Shown here piece after piece: positions 1-5,599 of a DNA stretch of 41,496 nucleotides. A program made the position numbers and the translations under genes. The notes beneath the pieces were generated by a model. The model was given only the letters and a program-made list of their open reading frames with translations. It did not search any database and had not been told where the DNA came from. Source of the DNA: Faecalibacterium sp. (GTDB taxonomy: Bacteria; Bacillota; Clostridia; Oscillospirales; Ruminococcaceae); the NCBI GenBank assembly GCA_022652735.1, contig JALCRP010000016.1, positions 1 through 41,496 on the forward strand, read 5' to 3'. Every line of letters starts with the position of its first letter. Position 1 is the stretch's first letter.

Positions 1-11
1 TGTTGAAATGG

Positions 12-1148
12 TTACACCATTTTCATGCCCTGCTGTTCAACCTGAAACGGTTCGCTCTTGCAGCGAACAAGCCCAAATTCCGTCTGCACCACGCCGTCCA
101 TCTCTGCGCGATATTTTCCGTAGGCTTCGTAGTCCATAAAACCGTCAATATCGTCGAGAATGTCGATATTACGGTCACCGGCCTCCAAGAGCACTGACCG
201 TCCGTATTCCTCCATGTCTGGCGAAACGCGCTCATAATCGTCAATATCCATCGCATAGCGCAGGGCATCCTGAAAGGTTTCGGGCTGCTCCACCTCCAAA
301 ACAGAGAGGTATTTCAGCAGCTCGCCGTCCACTTTGTTCATTTGCTCAATGCACTGCGCCAGCTCATTTGCATCCTCGACGGTGATGCAGTCCTGCGGAA
401 CACGGGTTGCCAGATACGGAAACGGGTAATCCACCGTGACAATCCCCGCTTCAGCAAATTCCTCGCAGACCAGCTTTGCTTTGGTCATTTCAAGCTGCGA
501 TTCCGTCGCAGGGAGCAACAGACACAATTCGTTGCCGCAATGCGTTTCATCGCGGTTTTCCCGCAGGAACAGAGTCATGATTGCCGCTTCCTCCTGTCGG
601 ACATCAAAAAACTGTTCAGGGAGTTCTTCTCTCCGAACCACATACCCGCCACGGCAGAACGCGCCGCCGTGCTCGGCATCAAATTCAGTGCCGATGATGG
701 AATAATTGAGATGGGGTCTGACGCTTTCGGGGAATGATACGATATCGTTTTCTACAAGATAGCGTCCGAGCTTGCTGCCGATCTCCGCGTCCGGCAGGAG
801 GGCGTAATCGTCCAGCGAATCCGAGAGCCGCAGAACATCGTCAATGCCGTTCACGCTGTTGGCATCCAAAACGCCCTCAAACTTGAGACAGGACTCACGG
901 TCCATCGTCTGAAGCTTCTGTGTGAGAGCAATGATTTTGTCCAACTCACCGGGCTTGTCGATGTTCACATTCTTGAGATATCCACTGAGATTGTAAACAT
1001 TGCTGACAGCTTCCGCGATTTTGGTGGGAGCTGTCGTGCTGATATTGTCGAGCAGACGGAAACACTCAGAAATCTCCGCTTTCGAGGCGGGAATTTTTAG
1101 GTACACACCCTCCGGATCATCGGCGCGGGTAATGTTGAGTGTGATCAT
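12..1148 (-). CDS. Tandem-module ArdA/YodL-like antirestriction protein (ICE cargo)
   Basis: This 378-residue acidic protein resembles the ArdA/YodL-type proteins carried by Firmicutes conjugative elements. ArdA proteins mimic DNA and block type I restriction enzymes when the element enters a new host. Two similar halves are visible, roughly residues 1-178 and 200-365. Each half starts with a short strand ending in L-P-A and ends with a segment rich in Asp/Glu, Tyr-Gly or Leu-Gly, and a G-[YL]-V strand (near residues 111-170 and 301-361). The ATG overlaps the stop of the upstream gene in an ATGA, and GGGAGG lies 6 bases before it, so the two genes are translationally coupled. The antirestriction role is inferred from family resemblance. 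The homology to the next gene's C-terminal module is visible by eye but was not computed. Confidence 0.7.
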   Translation of the reverse strand: MITLNITRADDPEGVYLKIPASKAEISECFRLLDNISTTAPTKIAEAVSNVYNLSGYLKNVNIDKPGELDKIIALTQKLQTMDRESCLKFEGVLDANSVNGIDDVLRLSDSLDDYALLPDAEIGSKLGRYLVENDIVSFPESVRPHLNYSIIGTEFDAEHGGAFCRGGYVVRREELPEQFFDVRQEEAAIMTLFLRENRDETHCGNELCLLLPATESQLEMTKAKLVCEEFAEAGIVTVDYPFPYLATRVPQDCITVEDANELAQCIEQMNKVDGELLKYLSVLEVEQPETFQDALRYAMDIDDYERVSPDMEEYGRSVLLEAGDRNIDILDDIDGFMDYEAYGKYRAEMDGVVQTEFGLVRCKSEPFQVEQQGMKMV

Positions 1149-2326
1149 GACTGTCCTCCCATCTGAAAATCCTGCTCCGCAGGGTCTTCCATCATCAGCT
1201 CGTCAAGGCTGAGCGTGCCGTGATAGCTGACGTAGCCGCGATCTGTGAACGTACCGCCGTCCCATTCTATGCGGTCAGCGCCGTACTTTTTAAAGTCGAT
1301 GTAGTCGACAAGATTTCCGTCGTACTCGAAATGACCTGACTCCATGATGATGGCTTTTCCCAATTCCTCGGCGGTATGTACCTTGGGGACGAGTTCAAAA
1401 AGGTCGATGTTTTCGGCAAGCTGACGAATCTGCGAGGCGTATTCCGGCTGCGCCAGCATCACCGCTGCGCCCAGCTTTTCTCTGCTGCCAGCGTCGAGCT
1501 TGGCAATCGCCGCGCACATTTCATTCAGAGCGTCAAGGCTCTCATGCTCCATATCCAGCGCGACATCGACCTCTGAGGGCAGCTCACTTTCAATAAATCG
1601 GAGCTGCATCTCTCCATAGCTGTCAATACCGGCGCGGAGCATGGCACGCTCGATCTGCGCCTGCGTCATGGGTAGATAGAGATAGGAAGCAGGAGCATCC
1701 TCGGATGCAGATTGCGGGGCTATTTCGACCGTCAGTATGCTGTCATCATAGCGATATTCGGGAAAGAACCGCCCGTCATAGCACTCAGCGTATTGAAAGC
1801 CATTGTCATAGACAACGCCGTAGGGTGTAACCCTGCCTACGGCTCCTTCCAGCACTTCAAGCGCAATGCTGTGGAAGTCCACTTTCTGCATTTCGTCCGG
1901 CGATGCGCCACCATTCATTGTCAGGTAATGCCTGCGGCCCAGCGTTTCGAGGTCGTTGAAGTCCGTGACCACAGTGACTTCCTGACAGCCAAAGGTCAAG
2001 TTGATAAGCTCGTCGGTGCTGCATACGCCCAGCCGGTACGCCATGCCCTCGAACTGCGTTTTCTCGTATTCGTCGAAGCTGTCCAGCCGCTTTGCAAGGT
2101 AATCCAGCTCATCGACATTGACGCGCGTATGCACCATGTGCTTGAGGACGGAAAAATCTCCGCGTATTTCGTCCAGCTTACAGTCCTGCATGACTGCGTC
2201 GCCGATTTCAATTTGGTCGAGCATTCCGATGATTTCGTCATACTGTTCGCGGGGAATGGGGAACGGCACCGACACAACGCCGTATTCGGGATGGTCGGGG
2301 TTGGATAAAACCGCTTTGAATATCAT
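1145..2326 (-). CDS. ArdA-like antirestriction protein
   Basis: From the Met at 2326 this is a 393-residue protein. Its opening (a PDHPEYGV motif, then PFPIP and a LDYLAKRLDSF segment) matches my memory of the ArdA-type antirestriction proteins on Tn1549-like conjugative elements. It again contains two ~190-residue modules. The family inhibits restriction of incoming DNA by mimicking the DNA double helix, and this sequence is strongly acidic, in agreement. The frame does not begin at 2326: it is open without a stop from 2908, so the protein is fused in frame behind a fragment of a DNA methyltransferase. The codon at 2326 is probably the original start, but no Shine-Dalgarno sequence remains before it. 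It is coupled to the downstream gene by an ATGA overlap. Confidence 0.75.
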   Translation of the reverse strand: MIFKAVLSNPDHPEYGVVSVPFPIPREQYDEIIGMLDQIEIGDAVMQDCKLDEIRGDFSVLKHMVHTRVNVDELDYLAKRLDSFDEYEKTQFEGMAYRLGVCSTDELINLTFGCQEVTVVTDFNDLETLGRRHYLTMNGGASPDEMQKVDFHSIALEVLEGAVGRVTPYGVVYDNGFQYAECYDGRFFPEYRYDDSILTVEIAPQSASEDAPASYLYLPMTQAQIERAMLRAGIDSYGEMQLRFIESELPSEVDVALDMEHESLDALNEMCAAIAKLDAGSREKLGAAVMLAQPEYASQIRQLAENIDLFELVPKVHTAEELGKAIIMESGHFEYDGNLVDYIDFKKYGADRIEWDGGTFTDRGYVSYHGTLSLDELMMEDPAEQDFQMGGQS

Positions 2327-2908
2327 GTTCCAACCGCTATATCTCCAGATGATTTCGTTCTGGAAGTTGTCCACCCCAAAAATTTCATCCAATAACACCT
2401 TAAAGTAATGTGACTCGTTTTGATCAAGCTGAACATAAATCGAACCAGTCGGAGATAATAGCCTTTTTGCGATTTCCAACCTGTTTTTCATAAACACAAG
2501 CCAAGTAGAGTGGTTGAAAGAATCATTATAACGGAAAGAATCTCCGTTTGTGTTGTAAGGAGGATCCAAATAAATTAAATCTATCTTGCCCTCATAGCGT
2601 TTCAGAAGCGATGCAATAGCAAGAAGATTGTTCCCCTTAATGAGAAGGTTGTCACTATCGCTGAAGTCAACAGCAGGGGTGGCGGTGATACAATCGTCGC
2701 CACCTGTCGGTATTCCAGTCAGGTCTGTTTCGCCCGTATAACTGTATCGTGTTGCACCAACAAGCACTTTGGGGTATAACAGTCTGTCCACTTCGTCTGG
2801 AGCAAGCGTTTCATTGAAAAAGACTTCACTTCGCTTTTGTTCGTCCTTGGTCTGCCCCCCCTCAAGAATACAGTCTTTGTATGGAAACGAAAGAACTACA
2901 TCAATAGT
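2327..2908 (-). pseudogene. Internal fragment of a type III DNA methyltransferase (Mod)
   Basis: The reading frame from 2908 down to the ArdA start encodes about 194 residues of a beta-class adenine methyltransferase of the type III restriction family. The recognisable order is a VVLSFPYKDC segment, a GGQTKDEQKR stretch, NETLAPDE, the IKGNNLLAL helix, the catalytic DPPYNT motif, the FNHSTW segment, and NEIIWRYSGWN. The fragment lacks about 60-100 residues at the N-terminus, where a TAA at 2909-2911 interrupts the frame. It also lacks the whole C-terminal half: the target-recognition region and the FxGxG-type AdoMet motif that follows DPPY in this class. It is therefore very unlikely to methylate DNA. 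A GTG at 2791 could start translation, but no good ribosome binding site is seen. The fragment looks more AT-rich than the ArdA portion. Confidence 0.8.
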
Positions 2909-3102
2909 TTACATCTCATATGCAGAAATCGCAGCGTTCATATGTTATAATTAAAAAAACATGAGTTTTCTCGGTGTCTTTTAATAGAACGATTAATTGA
3001 AGCCACATATAAACGCTACAGCAGATAAAGACGCATTTAGCAAAAGAAAAAGTAAAAGACCAATGCAGTTCTCCATATGTGTTGGTACAGAAAGGAGAAA
3101 AT

Positions 3103-3684
3103 ATGTCACAGGTAACAAAGCGGGCGCTGGAAGCTTCTCTTAAAAATTTGCTGCTGAAAAAACCGTTGGATAAAATTACAATCAGCGATATTGCAGAGGA
3201 CTGCGGCATCAACCGCATGACTTTTTACTATCATTTTAAAGATATTTACGATTTAATCGAATGGTCCTGTGTCGAAGATGCAAGCAAGGCCTTGGAGGGC
3301 AAAAAGACGTATGGCGCATGGCAGGAAGGCTTTTTGCAGATTTTTGAAGCCGTTCGGAACAATAAGCCTTTTATCATGAATGTCTACCACAGCGTCAGCC
3401 GCGAGCAGGTGGAGATTTATCTCTACAAGCTGACATATAATCTTCTCTTTGGCGTTGTGGAGGAGAAGGCGGCAGGCATGAATGTAAGCGATGAGGATAA
3501 AAAGTTTATCGCCGATTTTTATAAGTTTGCCTTTGTGGGTCTTATGCTCGACTGGATACGAAACGACATGAAAGAAGATCCCAATGTCATCATTGATCGA
3601 CTCAGCACGTTGATGCGCGGGAATATGACAAAGGCACTGGAAGCGTACAGAACTGACAATCCTTTATCAAAACCGTCCATTTGA
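3103..3684 (+). CDS. TetR/AcrR-family transcriptional regulator, probable ohyA regulator
   Basis: This 193-residue protein has an N-terminal TetR helix-turn-helix (residues 1-50) containing KITISDIAEDCGINRMTFYYHF, followed by an all-helical ligand domain of the DhaS-like type. I chose the ATG at 3103 because AAAGGAG sits 7 bases upstream; the ATG at 3079 has no such site. A strong terminator follows the gene, and the oleate hydratase gene begins 139 bases downstream with its own promoter, so the two are separate transcription units in the same orientation. TetR neighbours commonly control fatty-acid-responsive genes. That it senses oleate or another fatty acid and represses ohyA is inference from adjacency. 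Confidence 0.85.
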   Translation: MSQVTKRALEASLKNLLLKKPLDKITISDIAEDCGINRMTFYYHFKDIYDLIEWSCVEDASKALEGKKTYGAWQEGFLQIFEAVRNNKPFIMNVYHSVSREQVEIYLYKLTYNLLFGVVEEKAAGMNVSDEDKKFIADFYKFAFVGLMLDWIRNDMKEDPNVIIDRLSTLMRGNMTKALEAYRTDNPLSKPSI

Positions 3685-3699
3685 TAAGTTTATCCTCAA

Positions 3700-3742
3700 A
3701 TTCTGCGCCGTGATAAGACTTTCATCACGGCGCAGAATCTGT
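3700..3742 (+). terminator. Rho-independent terminator after the tetR gene
   Basis: A perfect 15-bp inverted repeat (ATTCTGCGCCGTGAT at 3700-3714, its complement at 3724-3738) encloses a 9-base loop and is followed by a short T-rich stretch. It separates the regulator gene from the ohyA promoter. Confidence 0.75.
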
Positions 3743-3745
3743 TTA

Positions 3746-3796
3746 TTGTGGCTTTGTGGGTGCGCAATTACAATATGACCATAAGGTAATTCACCT
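3746..3796 (+). promoter_or_regulatory. ohyA promoter with a possible operator
   Basis: TTGTGG at 3746-3751 and TACAAT at 3769-3774 are separated by exactly 17 bases and give a good vegetative promoter. Just downstream, at about +1 to +15, the dyad AGGT-N5-ACCT (3784-3796) is a candidate binding site for the adjacent TetR protein. The promoter is well supported; the operator is a guess from position and symmetry. Confidence 0.55.
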
Positions 3797-3823
3797 GAAA
3801 TAAAATTTACAGGAGGTCATATT

Positions 3824-5599
3824 ATGTATTATTCAAGCGGTAACTATGAAGCCTTTGCGCGTCCCGAAAAGCCGGAAAACGTAGAGCACAAGTCGGCATA
3901 TCTGATCGGAAGCGGCTTAGCCTCCCTTTCTGCGGCCTGCTTTCTTGTGCGCGACGCCCAGATGCCGGGGGCGCATATTCATATCTTTGAAAAAGGCCCT
4001 ATTCCCGGCGGCGCTTTGGACGGAGATCAGATGACCAATGTGGGCTATGTCATGCGCGGCGGACGCGAAATGGACAATCACTTTGAGTGCATGTGGGACT
4101 TGTTCCGTTCCATTCCCTCCATCGAAACCGAGGGCGTCAGCATCCTTGACGAATATTACTGGCTGAACAAAAAGGACCCCAACTATTCTCTTTGCCGCGC
4201 CACCCTGAACCGGGGTCAGGATGCCCATACCGAAAACAAGTTTGGCCTCTCTGACAAGGGCGCTCTGGAAATCATGAACCTGTTCATGACGCCGGATGAG
4301 AAGCTGGAAAATGTCAAGATGACAGAGCTTTTTGACGACGAGGTATTCAACACCAATTTCTGGATGTACTGGCGTACCATGTTCGCGTTTAAGGACGATC
4401 AAAGCGCCCTTGAGATGAAGCGCTATATGCAAAGATACATTCATCACATCGGCGGTCTGCCCGACTTCAAAGCGCTGCGCTTCACCAAATACAACCAGTA
4501 TGAGTCCATGGTGCTGCCCATGATCAAGTACCTGGAGGAGCACGGCGTCCAATTCCATTACAACACACAGGTCATGAATGTGATATTTGACATTCTGCCT
4601 CAGAAGAAAACCGCAAAAACAATCGTAATTGAGCATGACGGTCAGACAGAAAACATTGATCTCACATCGGATGATTTTGTTTTCTACACAAACGGCAGCA
4701 ACGTGGAAAATTCCACCTACGGCAGCCAGACTAAGGCGAGCGGTATGGACAGCGAAATTCACGAGGGCGGCACGTTTGATTTGTGGCGCAAGATTGCCAG
4801 GCAGGATGCATCCTTCGGTCGTCCCGACAAATTCTGCACCGATCCTGAGGACAGCAACTGGGTCAGTGCCACTGTCAACACCCTTGATGGAAAAATTCTG
4901 CCCTATATCAAAAATATCTGCAAACGCGATCCGCTGTCCGGCAAGGTGGTCACCGGCGGCATCGTCACCGTAACGGATTCCAAGTGGCTTCTCAGCTGGA
5001 CGATTAACCGCCAGCCGCAATACCGGAATCAGCCCAAGGGTCAGGTGCTTGTGTGGCTTTACGGAATGTTCTCCGACCGTCCCGGCGACTTCATCAAGAA
5101 GGCCATGCGCGACTGCACCGGCATGGAAATCTGTGAAGAGTGGCTTTATCATCTGGGCGTTCCCGAAGATCAGATTGAGGGTCTGGCAAAAAACAGCGCC
5201 AATACGGTGCCTGTCATGATGCCCTTTGCCAGCGCGTACTTCCAGCCGCGTGAGGCGGGCGATCGTCCCGACGTCGTGCCCAAGGGCTGTGTCAATTTCG
5301 CGTTTATCGGCAATTTCGCGGAAACGCCGAGAGATACCGTCTTTACCACCGAGTATTCCATTCGCACCGCGATGGAGGCGGTCTACACGCTGCTGAATGT
5401 GGATCGCGGTGTGCCGGAAGTCTGGGGCAGTGTCTATGATGTCCGCGATCTTCTCAACGCAACGATTGCTATGCGCGACGGCAAGCCGATTACCGAAATG
5501 AAGCTCGATATCAAGCAGAAAATTGCGGTCAAAGAGCTTCTCAAAAAGGTGGAAGGAACCGAGGTCGAAAAGCTTCTCAATGAGTATCACGTGATCTGA
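3824..5599 (+). CDS. ohyA: Oleate hydratase (FAD-dependent fatty acid hydratase)
   Basis: This 591-residue protein is full length for the oleate hydratase (formerly myosin-cross-reactive antigen) family. Oleate hydratase adds water to the cis-9 double bond of oleic and related acids to give 10-hydroxystearate, using FAD structurally. The nucleotide-binding motif G-S-G-L-A-S is at residues 29-34. The FEKGPIPGGALDG segment follows, and the conserved NGSNVENSTYG and FIGNFAETPRDTVFTTEYS stretches lie further on. In gut bacteria the enzyme detoxifies unsaturated fatty acids. AGGAGGT lies 9 bases before the ATG. Its own promoter and terminator make it monocistronic, and the upstream TetR gene is its likely regulator. 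It lies between damaged mobile-element genes, which suggests it was acquired as cargo. Confidence 0.95.
   Translation: MYYSSGNYEAFARPEKPENVEHKSAYLIGSGLASLSAACFLVRDAQMPGAHIHIFEKGPIPGGALDGDQMTNVGYVMRGGREMDNHFECMWDLFRSIPSIETEGVSILDEYYWLNKKDPNYSLCRATLNRGQDAHTENKFGLSDKGALEIMNLFMTPDEKLENVKMTELFDDEVFNTNFWMYWRTMFAFKDDQSALEMKRYMQRYIHHIGGLPDFKALRFTKYNQYESMVLPMIKYLEEHGVQFHYNTQVMNVIFDILPQKKTAKTIVIEHDGQTENIDLTSDDFVFYTNGSNVENSTYGSQTKASGMDSEIHEGGTFDLWRKIARQDASFGRPDKFCTDPEDSNWVSATVNTLDGKILPYIKNICKRDPLSGKVVTGGIVTVTDSKWLLSWTINRQPQYRNQPKGQVLVWLYGMFSDRPGDFIKKAMRDCTGMEICEEWLYHLGVPEDQIEGLAKNSANTVPVMMPFASAYFQPREAGDRPDVVPKGCVNFAFIGNFAETPRDTVFTTEYSIRTAMEAVYTLLNVDRGVPEVWGSVYDVRDLLNATIAMRDGKPITEMKLDIKQKIAVKELLKKVEGTEVEKLLNEYHVI

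Follow-up and report, generated by a model that had tools for sequence, protein, structure and literature searches.

ArdA proteins are typically 166-177 residues long, and some homologues of ArdA carry long extensions and could be active, as set out in the relevant passages of PMC3906837. Among the Firmicutes, passages of PMC5512222 describe ArdA in mobile-element proteins, together with the LPD28 domain. Literature consisting mostly of titles and the beginnings of abstracts yielded no description that we recognised of an ArdA-Mod fusion, or of an element inside a mod gene.

Here, we describe a computational analysis of an open frame in which a fragment of a type III Mod protein runs directly into a complete ArdA-like protein. 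The window, that is, the whole stretch of DNA that was analysed, is an entire contig (C16) of 41,496 bases from a 35-contig, 2.2 Mb draft genome, and a tandem pair of ArdA-like genes lies at its very end. In our assessment the fusion is most likely a rearrangement scar, in which element DNA carrying an intact antirestriction gene lies inside a decayed mod-res locus.

A Mod fragment in frame with an ArdA-like gene

A single open frame on the minus strand extends from 2908 to a stop codon at 1147-1145 and comprises 587 residues from stop to stop, or 548 residues counted from a GTG at 2791. The uninterrupted frame from Mod to ArdA that was reported in the preliminary description of this DNA is thus confirmed: 587 codons are open, with residues 1-194 (2908-2327) belonging to a type III Mod fragment and residues 195-587 to a complete ArdA-like protein that begins at its own ATG at 2326. 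The in-frame state of the join would carry little weight, because one in three random joins would be in frame. The features at this end of the window are as follows.

12..1148, minus strand: ArdA-like gene 2, complete (Pfam; same tandem order in contig C6 of the same genome)
1145..2326, minus strand: ArdA-like gene 1, complete from ATG to TGA (Pfam; 11 aligned relatives)
2318..2335, minus strand: Mod/ArdA junction (the closest intact Mod, locus L223, diverges right after EIIWR)
2327..2908, minus strand: internal fragment of a type III mod gene (Pfam, PADLOC, mapping on full Mods; GC 42.4%)
2905..2911, minus strand: second break, where the start of the Mod fragment adjoins a stop codon (own-genome search with full Mod)
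3079..3684, plus strand: TetR-family regulator, chromosomal flank (relatives adjoin oleate hydratase in congeners)
3824..5599, plus strand: oleate hydratase, chromosomal flank (sequence matches)

The Mod fragment is identified by a Pfam N6_N4_Mtase match at residues 109-194 (E 1.1e-18) and by the PADLOC MTase_III profile PDLC03635 (positions 162-324 of 708, E 5e-73), and it retains the catalytic motif IV (DPPYNT). On the 661-residue Mod of locus L031 it corresponds to residues 112-277 by significant match, or to about 289 if extended to its end. It is cut at both ends: full Mods hold some 105-111 more N-terminal residues, and they differ past the junction, the closest intact copy that continues there with different sequence being that of genome G682. 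With a full Mod as query, the own genome gave no match at this place upstream of the fragment. The 5' truncation, like the fact that the window is a whole contig, is additional to what had been observed earlier, while mapping on full Mods bears out the earlier statement that the Mod part is devoid of the target-recognition region and the AdoMet motif; in the L031 Mod a motif I-like FLGSGT lies at about residue 500, inside the part that has no match in the own genome. The fragment is the sole N6_N4_Mtase match above cut-off in that genome. An intact mod elsewhere in the genome was rejected, since the full-Mod search returned two pieces only. A second Pfam methylase match (C13:420-578) is below cut-off; its frame was read by eye as an rRNA methyltransferase, presumably of the RlmD kind.

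The ArdA-like part matches Pfam ArdA at residues 410-560 with 41.6 bits against a curated cut-off of 27. When 11 ArdA relatives of 40-62% identity are aligned, their starts fall within 0-2 residues of its ATG at 2326, in agreement with the earlier claim that the frame enters the native start of an ArdA-like gene. The protein is acidic, with a net charge of -46 over 393 residues (75 acidic and 29 basic, by D/E/K/R count), and the stop of its gene overlaps the start of gene 2 in an ATGA. Contig C6 holds the same tandem pair at DNA identities of 70% and 67% over 1040 and 762 aligned bases, respectively. On C6 the pair adjoins a chloramphenicol acetyltransferase family gene (PF00302, L190:11259-11972), which is situated between ardA gene 2 and DNA matching an LPD28 gene of a further contig, C28. 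The ArdA-like protein (window 1148-2326, minus strand) may hold two ArdA-like units, as its predicted order of strands and helices repeats; a profile comparison of its halves gave a probability of 7 and E 0.005, which is weak sequence support. From their intact reading frames, the two genes may act as an antirestriction operon, and translation of ArdA could still begin at its native start codon.

An AlphaFold model of the fused frame was built on a 40-row alignment. Ten-residue blocks of the ArdA part (residues 201-520) were modelled at pLDDT 84-96, and the model predicts an ArdA fold there: the top Foldseek match is 2w82 (E 2.2e-6, TM 0.68 by target length, 177 alignment columns), which we take to be Tn916 ArdA. 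The next matches are the Mod-type methyltransferases 6k0w, 4zcf and 7dsu. The Mod part is uneven, with pLDDT 72-89 in most blocks between residues 91 and 180, and pLDDT 33-66 over residues 1-80, 41 at residues 121-130 just after DPPYNT, and 52 at residues 181-190. Eleven of its first 19 ten-residue blocks fall below pLDDT 70, and residues 8-46, 67-76, 122-130 and 186-192 fall below 50.

The exact base of the junction is not fixed, in that GGTTGGAAC could derive from either side; the sequence common to both sides would amount to about nine bases or fewer. Repeats sought within each border region separately gave short matches only. The ribosome-binding match at ATG 2326 is weak (-6.4). The best in-frame start inside the Mod part is a TTG 22 codons before the ardA ATG, with a match of -5.8, and starts early enough to retain most of the Mod part have a score of 0.0; the Mod fragment is without a convincing start. 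A scan for promoters yielded an uninformative 4 matches, one of them on the minus strand, where 2.0 would be expected. The preliminary description had taken it as evidence against a fusion if all relatives showed the same ArdA gene behind a normal ribosome binding site and without Mod. The relatives inspected mostly conform to this: they carry other DNA upstream, and in 9 of 11 the ribosome-binding match is stronger than that of the window, the other two scoring weaker (-3.3) as measured at an ATG directly behind GGAGG.

The remainder of the mod-res locus

The full Mod of L031 matches two places in the own genome, C16:2902-2357 (residues 112-277) and C28:7321-7710 (residues 520-659), and both pieces match PDLC03635, at positions 162-324 and 558-704 of 708. 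The Res of the same relative has one own-genome match, C28:7725-8180, which covers residues 1-150 and follows immediately after the mod end. No intact res gene was found downstream, Res being represented by these residues on C28 only. Mod residues 278-519 of L031 match nothing in the own genome, and a search of that genome likewise recovered neither the start of mod nor the end of res.

Base composition forms a mosaic that follows these pieces. The two mod pieces have GC contents of 42.4% and 46.0% and the res piece 42.6%, as compared with 52.2-55.2% for element genes and 56.5-57.7% for the chromosome; within the window, the 42.4% of the mod fragment stands against 56.5% for positions 3801-41496. 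The 170 bases beyond the 5' break of the Mod fragment have a GC content of 32.4%.

Upstream of the mod end, C28 carries element-type genes in one direction from position 263: LPD28, DUF4314, two ArdA-like genes (the second below the Pfam cut-off), YpsA/SLOG and half of a VirB4/TraG-like P-loop gene. The frame of the last (L192:5548-6681) begins at the P-loop part; its N-terminal half is taken as missing, and the half gene is taken to be another sign of a degraded element. A low-GC stretch of about 630 bases separates it from the mod end and holds a small frame on the other strand (L192:6688-7047, minus strand, no Pfam match), and the border near the mod end is not one clean join. On the far side, the frame continues beyond Res residue 152 or so into sequence with no Pfam match, followed by chromosomal-type genes, NA37 first. 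The Res stump is in frame with about 120 residues of this sequence (L192:7725-8531), a second apparent fusion at a border; an extra Res match past residue 152 (35%, about 64 residues, E 7e-4) is probably due to chance. At the end of C28 there is a small zinc-ribbon-like frame (L192:2-175, minus strand), below Pfam cut-offs.

The order of genes in genome G048 relates the two contigs. There, ardA, the start of an ardA-2-like stretch, and then LPD28-gene DNA and the genes following it are arranged in one direction, an order that matches C16 read backwards and then C28 (274-4164 matched), and C16-type DNA gives way to C28-type DNA between 8477 and 8616 of locus L191. It is therefore probable that C28 follows on from C16 when the latter is read backwards. 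We infer this adjacency rather than observe it because the contig ends share no sequence (no common 15-mer within 1500 bases) and blastn finds no counterpart of C28 1-252 in the stretches of C6 and G048.

Search for the junction in other genomes

The preliminary description had proposed searching genomes for the same junction; it recurred in none of those compared. In the order, 41 of 394 genomes match the fused protein at E <= 1e-20, with up to three candidates scored per genome. The row of the own genome alone spans both halves, and none of the 393 others does so; ArdA rows begin no more than 14 residues before Met 195, and Mod rows end by residue 206. At E <= 0.001, 19 of the 31 genomes of the genus (own included) match the fused protein, and none of the 30 others spans both halves. 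When window 1-3000 was compared as DNA with 297 family genomes, 11 matched and the own genome alone spanned the junction. The fused frame as a conserved family was rejected, there being no spanning match beyond the own genome in genus or family. Among 193 loci with flanks of differing length, a count that excludes loci fetched later, 132 match Mod, 44 match ArdA and five match both, all five being copies of the window. The 30-base junction sequence occurs in no viral contig. A known plasmid or phage feature was also rejected: a distant blastn search with window 1-3800 returned records from plasmids (14) and phages (6), in all of which coverage of the query stayed below 80%, and among the matches listed no stretch spans the Mod/ArdA junction.

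Both contigs show an unmatched mod-res part beside matched DNA. Window 2327-3089 is unmatched at the DNA level in the 30 other genomes of the genus, whereas the genes beside it do match, 25 of the 31 genomes (own included) giving some match. Similarly, C28:7300-11900 is matched in part in all 31 (own included), with its mod/res part unmatched in the others, where the lowest query position is 1320 of 4601. At E <= 1e-30, Res is found in three of the 394 genomes of the order, namely the own genome, G682 and G475; the latter two also provide the best Mod-half rows of the order-wide search with the fused protein, and in G682 mod and res adjoin. An empty site in relatives was sought and rejected. 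TetR relatives are present in seven of seven fetched stretches and oleate hydratase in six (the remaining one stops at that point). Upstream of TetR the gene content varies, and the original left flank was not recovered from these relatives.

Origin of the join and comparison with known systems

The deletion scar that the preliminary description had offered as its sober alternative is supported by the colinear mod pieces and the res stump, by the GC mosaic and by the gene order of the relative. In the sequence of events that we envisage, a low-GC type III mod-res operon would once have stood at this place. A GC-richer piece of a conjugative element, extending from just upstream of ardA to the half VirB4-like gene, would have replaced the middle of mod, and the outer ends of the locus, i.e., the start of mod and the end of res, would have been lost as well. 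One border would have come to lie only a few bases ahead of the start codon of ardA and, by chance, in frame. What works today, if anything, would be the ArdA pair, translated from its own starts with the ATGA overlap leading into gene 2 and acting as DNA-mimic inhibitors of restriction enzymes.

An assembly chimera was also raised in the preliminary description. In such an assembly or binning error, the assembler would have joined Mod and ArdA DNA from different molecules. The genome is a draft of 35 contigs, the ArdA pair is located at the end of the window, itself an entire contig, and the junction is found in no other compared genome or locus, nor its 30 bases in any viral contig. A chimera is nonetheless rather improbable, since the same genome has the matching mod end and res start on the seemingly complementary C28, in the same direction and at the same low GC. 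Such matching ends would be surprising after a random chimera, and the few bases that the two sides could share would be short for an assembler join. An unlikely variant is that mod-res was ordinary cargo of the element and was broken by a deletion inside it. This is a form of the scar reading, and its probability overlaps with that of the main one. The interleaving of element genes and restriction-modification pieces favors such an origin, but Mod and this ArdA occur together only in the five copies of the window among the 193 loci, and the GC contents of the two sets of genes differ by about 10 points.

The preliminary description put forward a working fusion, in which the Mod half would bind a Res partner or DNA, the ArdA half would mimic DNA, and the whole would act as a dominant decoy. 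Apart from the 587 open codons, nothing supports such a protein, although ArdA proteins with long terminal extensions are known and are argued to be possibly active in passages of PMC3906837. The start signals are poor (-5.8 at the late TTG and 0.0 at Mod-keeping starts, with -6.4 at the ardA ATG), the target-recognition and AdoMet parts are missing, and several Mod stretches fall below pLDDT 50. In addition, Res is represented in the genome by a single match, a stump of 150 residues, no N6_N4_Mtase match other than the Mod fragment itself lies above cut-off, and the fusion does not recur in the genomes or loci compared. We consider a functional decoy very improbable. It is just as hard to credit that, in one translated protein, the Mod remnant would guide the ArdA DNA mimic towards type III enzymes; if true, an antirestriction protein would have been newly built, by accident, from a piece of its own target.

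A rearrangement scar, which we prefer, implies that a striking in-frame domain fusion can be a product of decay, and that seeking the other end of a broken gene in the same assembly can go a long way towards settling the matter without reads. It would also provide a single case of mobile-element antirestriction genes within a restriction locus that is itself dead, as might plausibly result when elements and restriction systems are in conflict.

Among known systems, the Mod fragment shares the DPPYNT motif and the conserved block following it with EcoP15I Mod (PDB 4zcf). Full Mods comprise some 560-660 residues, whereas the fragment has 194 and is without the start, the target-recognition domain, the AdoMet motif and the C-terminus. 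The likeness to the ArdA family (PF07275; PDB 2w82) consists of the above-cut-off Pfam match, the top Foldseek match and the acidic character of the protein. In contrast to a typical ArdA, the ArdA-like protein has about 393 residues, and its predicted secondary structure suggests two units in a row. As in the ArdA proteins with N-terminal extensions that figure in passages of PMC3906837, the ArdA unit is preceded in frame by other sequence; here, however, that sequence is a truncated piece of a gene, which is without a convincing start and does not recur in the genomes and loci searched. Finally, the ArdA and LPD28 treated in passages of PMC5512222, which make no mention of the DUF4314 found on C28, are both present on C16 and C28. 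Unlike the domains of the large polyvalent protein described there, they are encoded here by separate genes.
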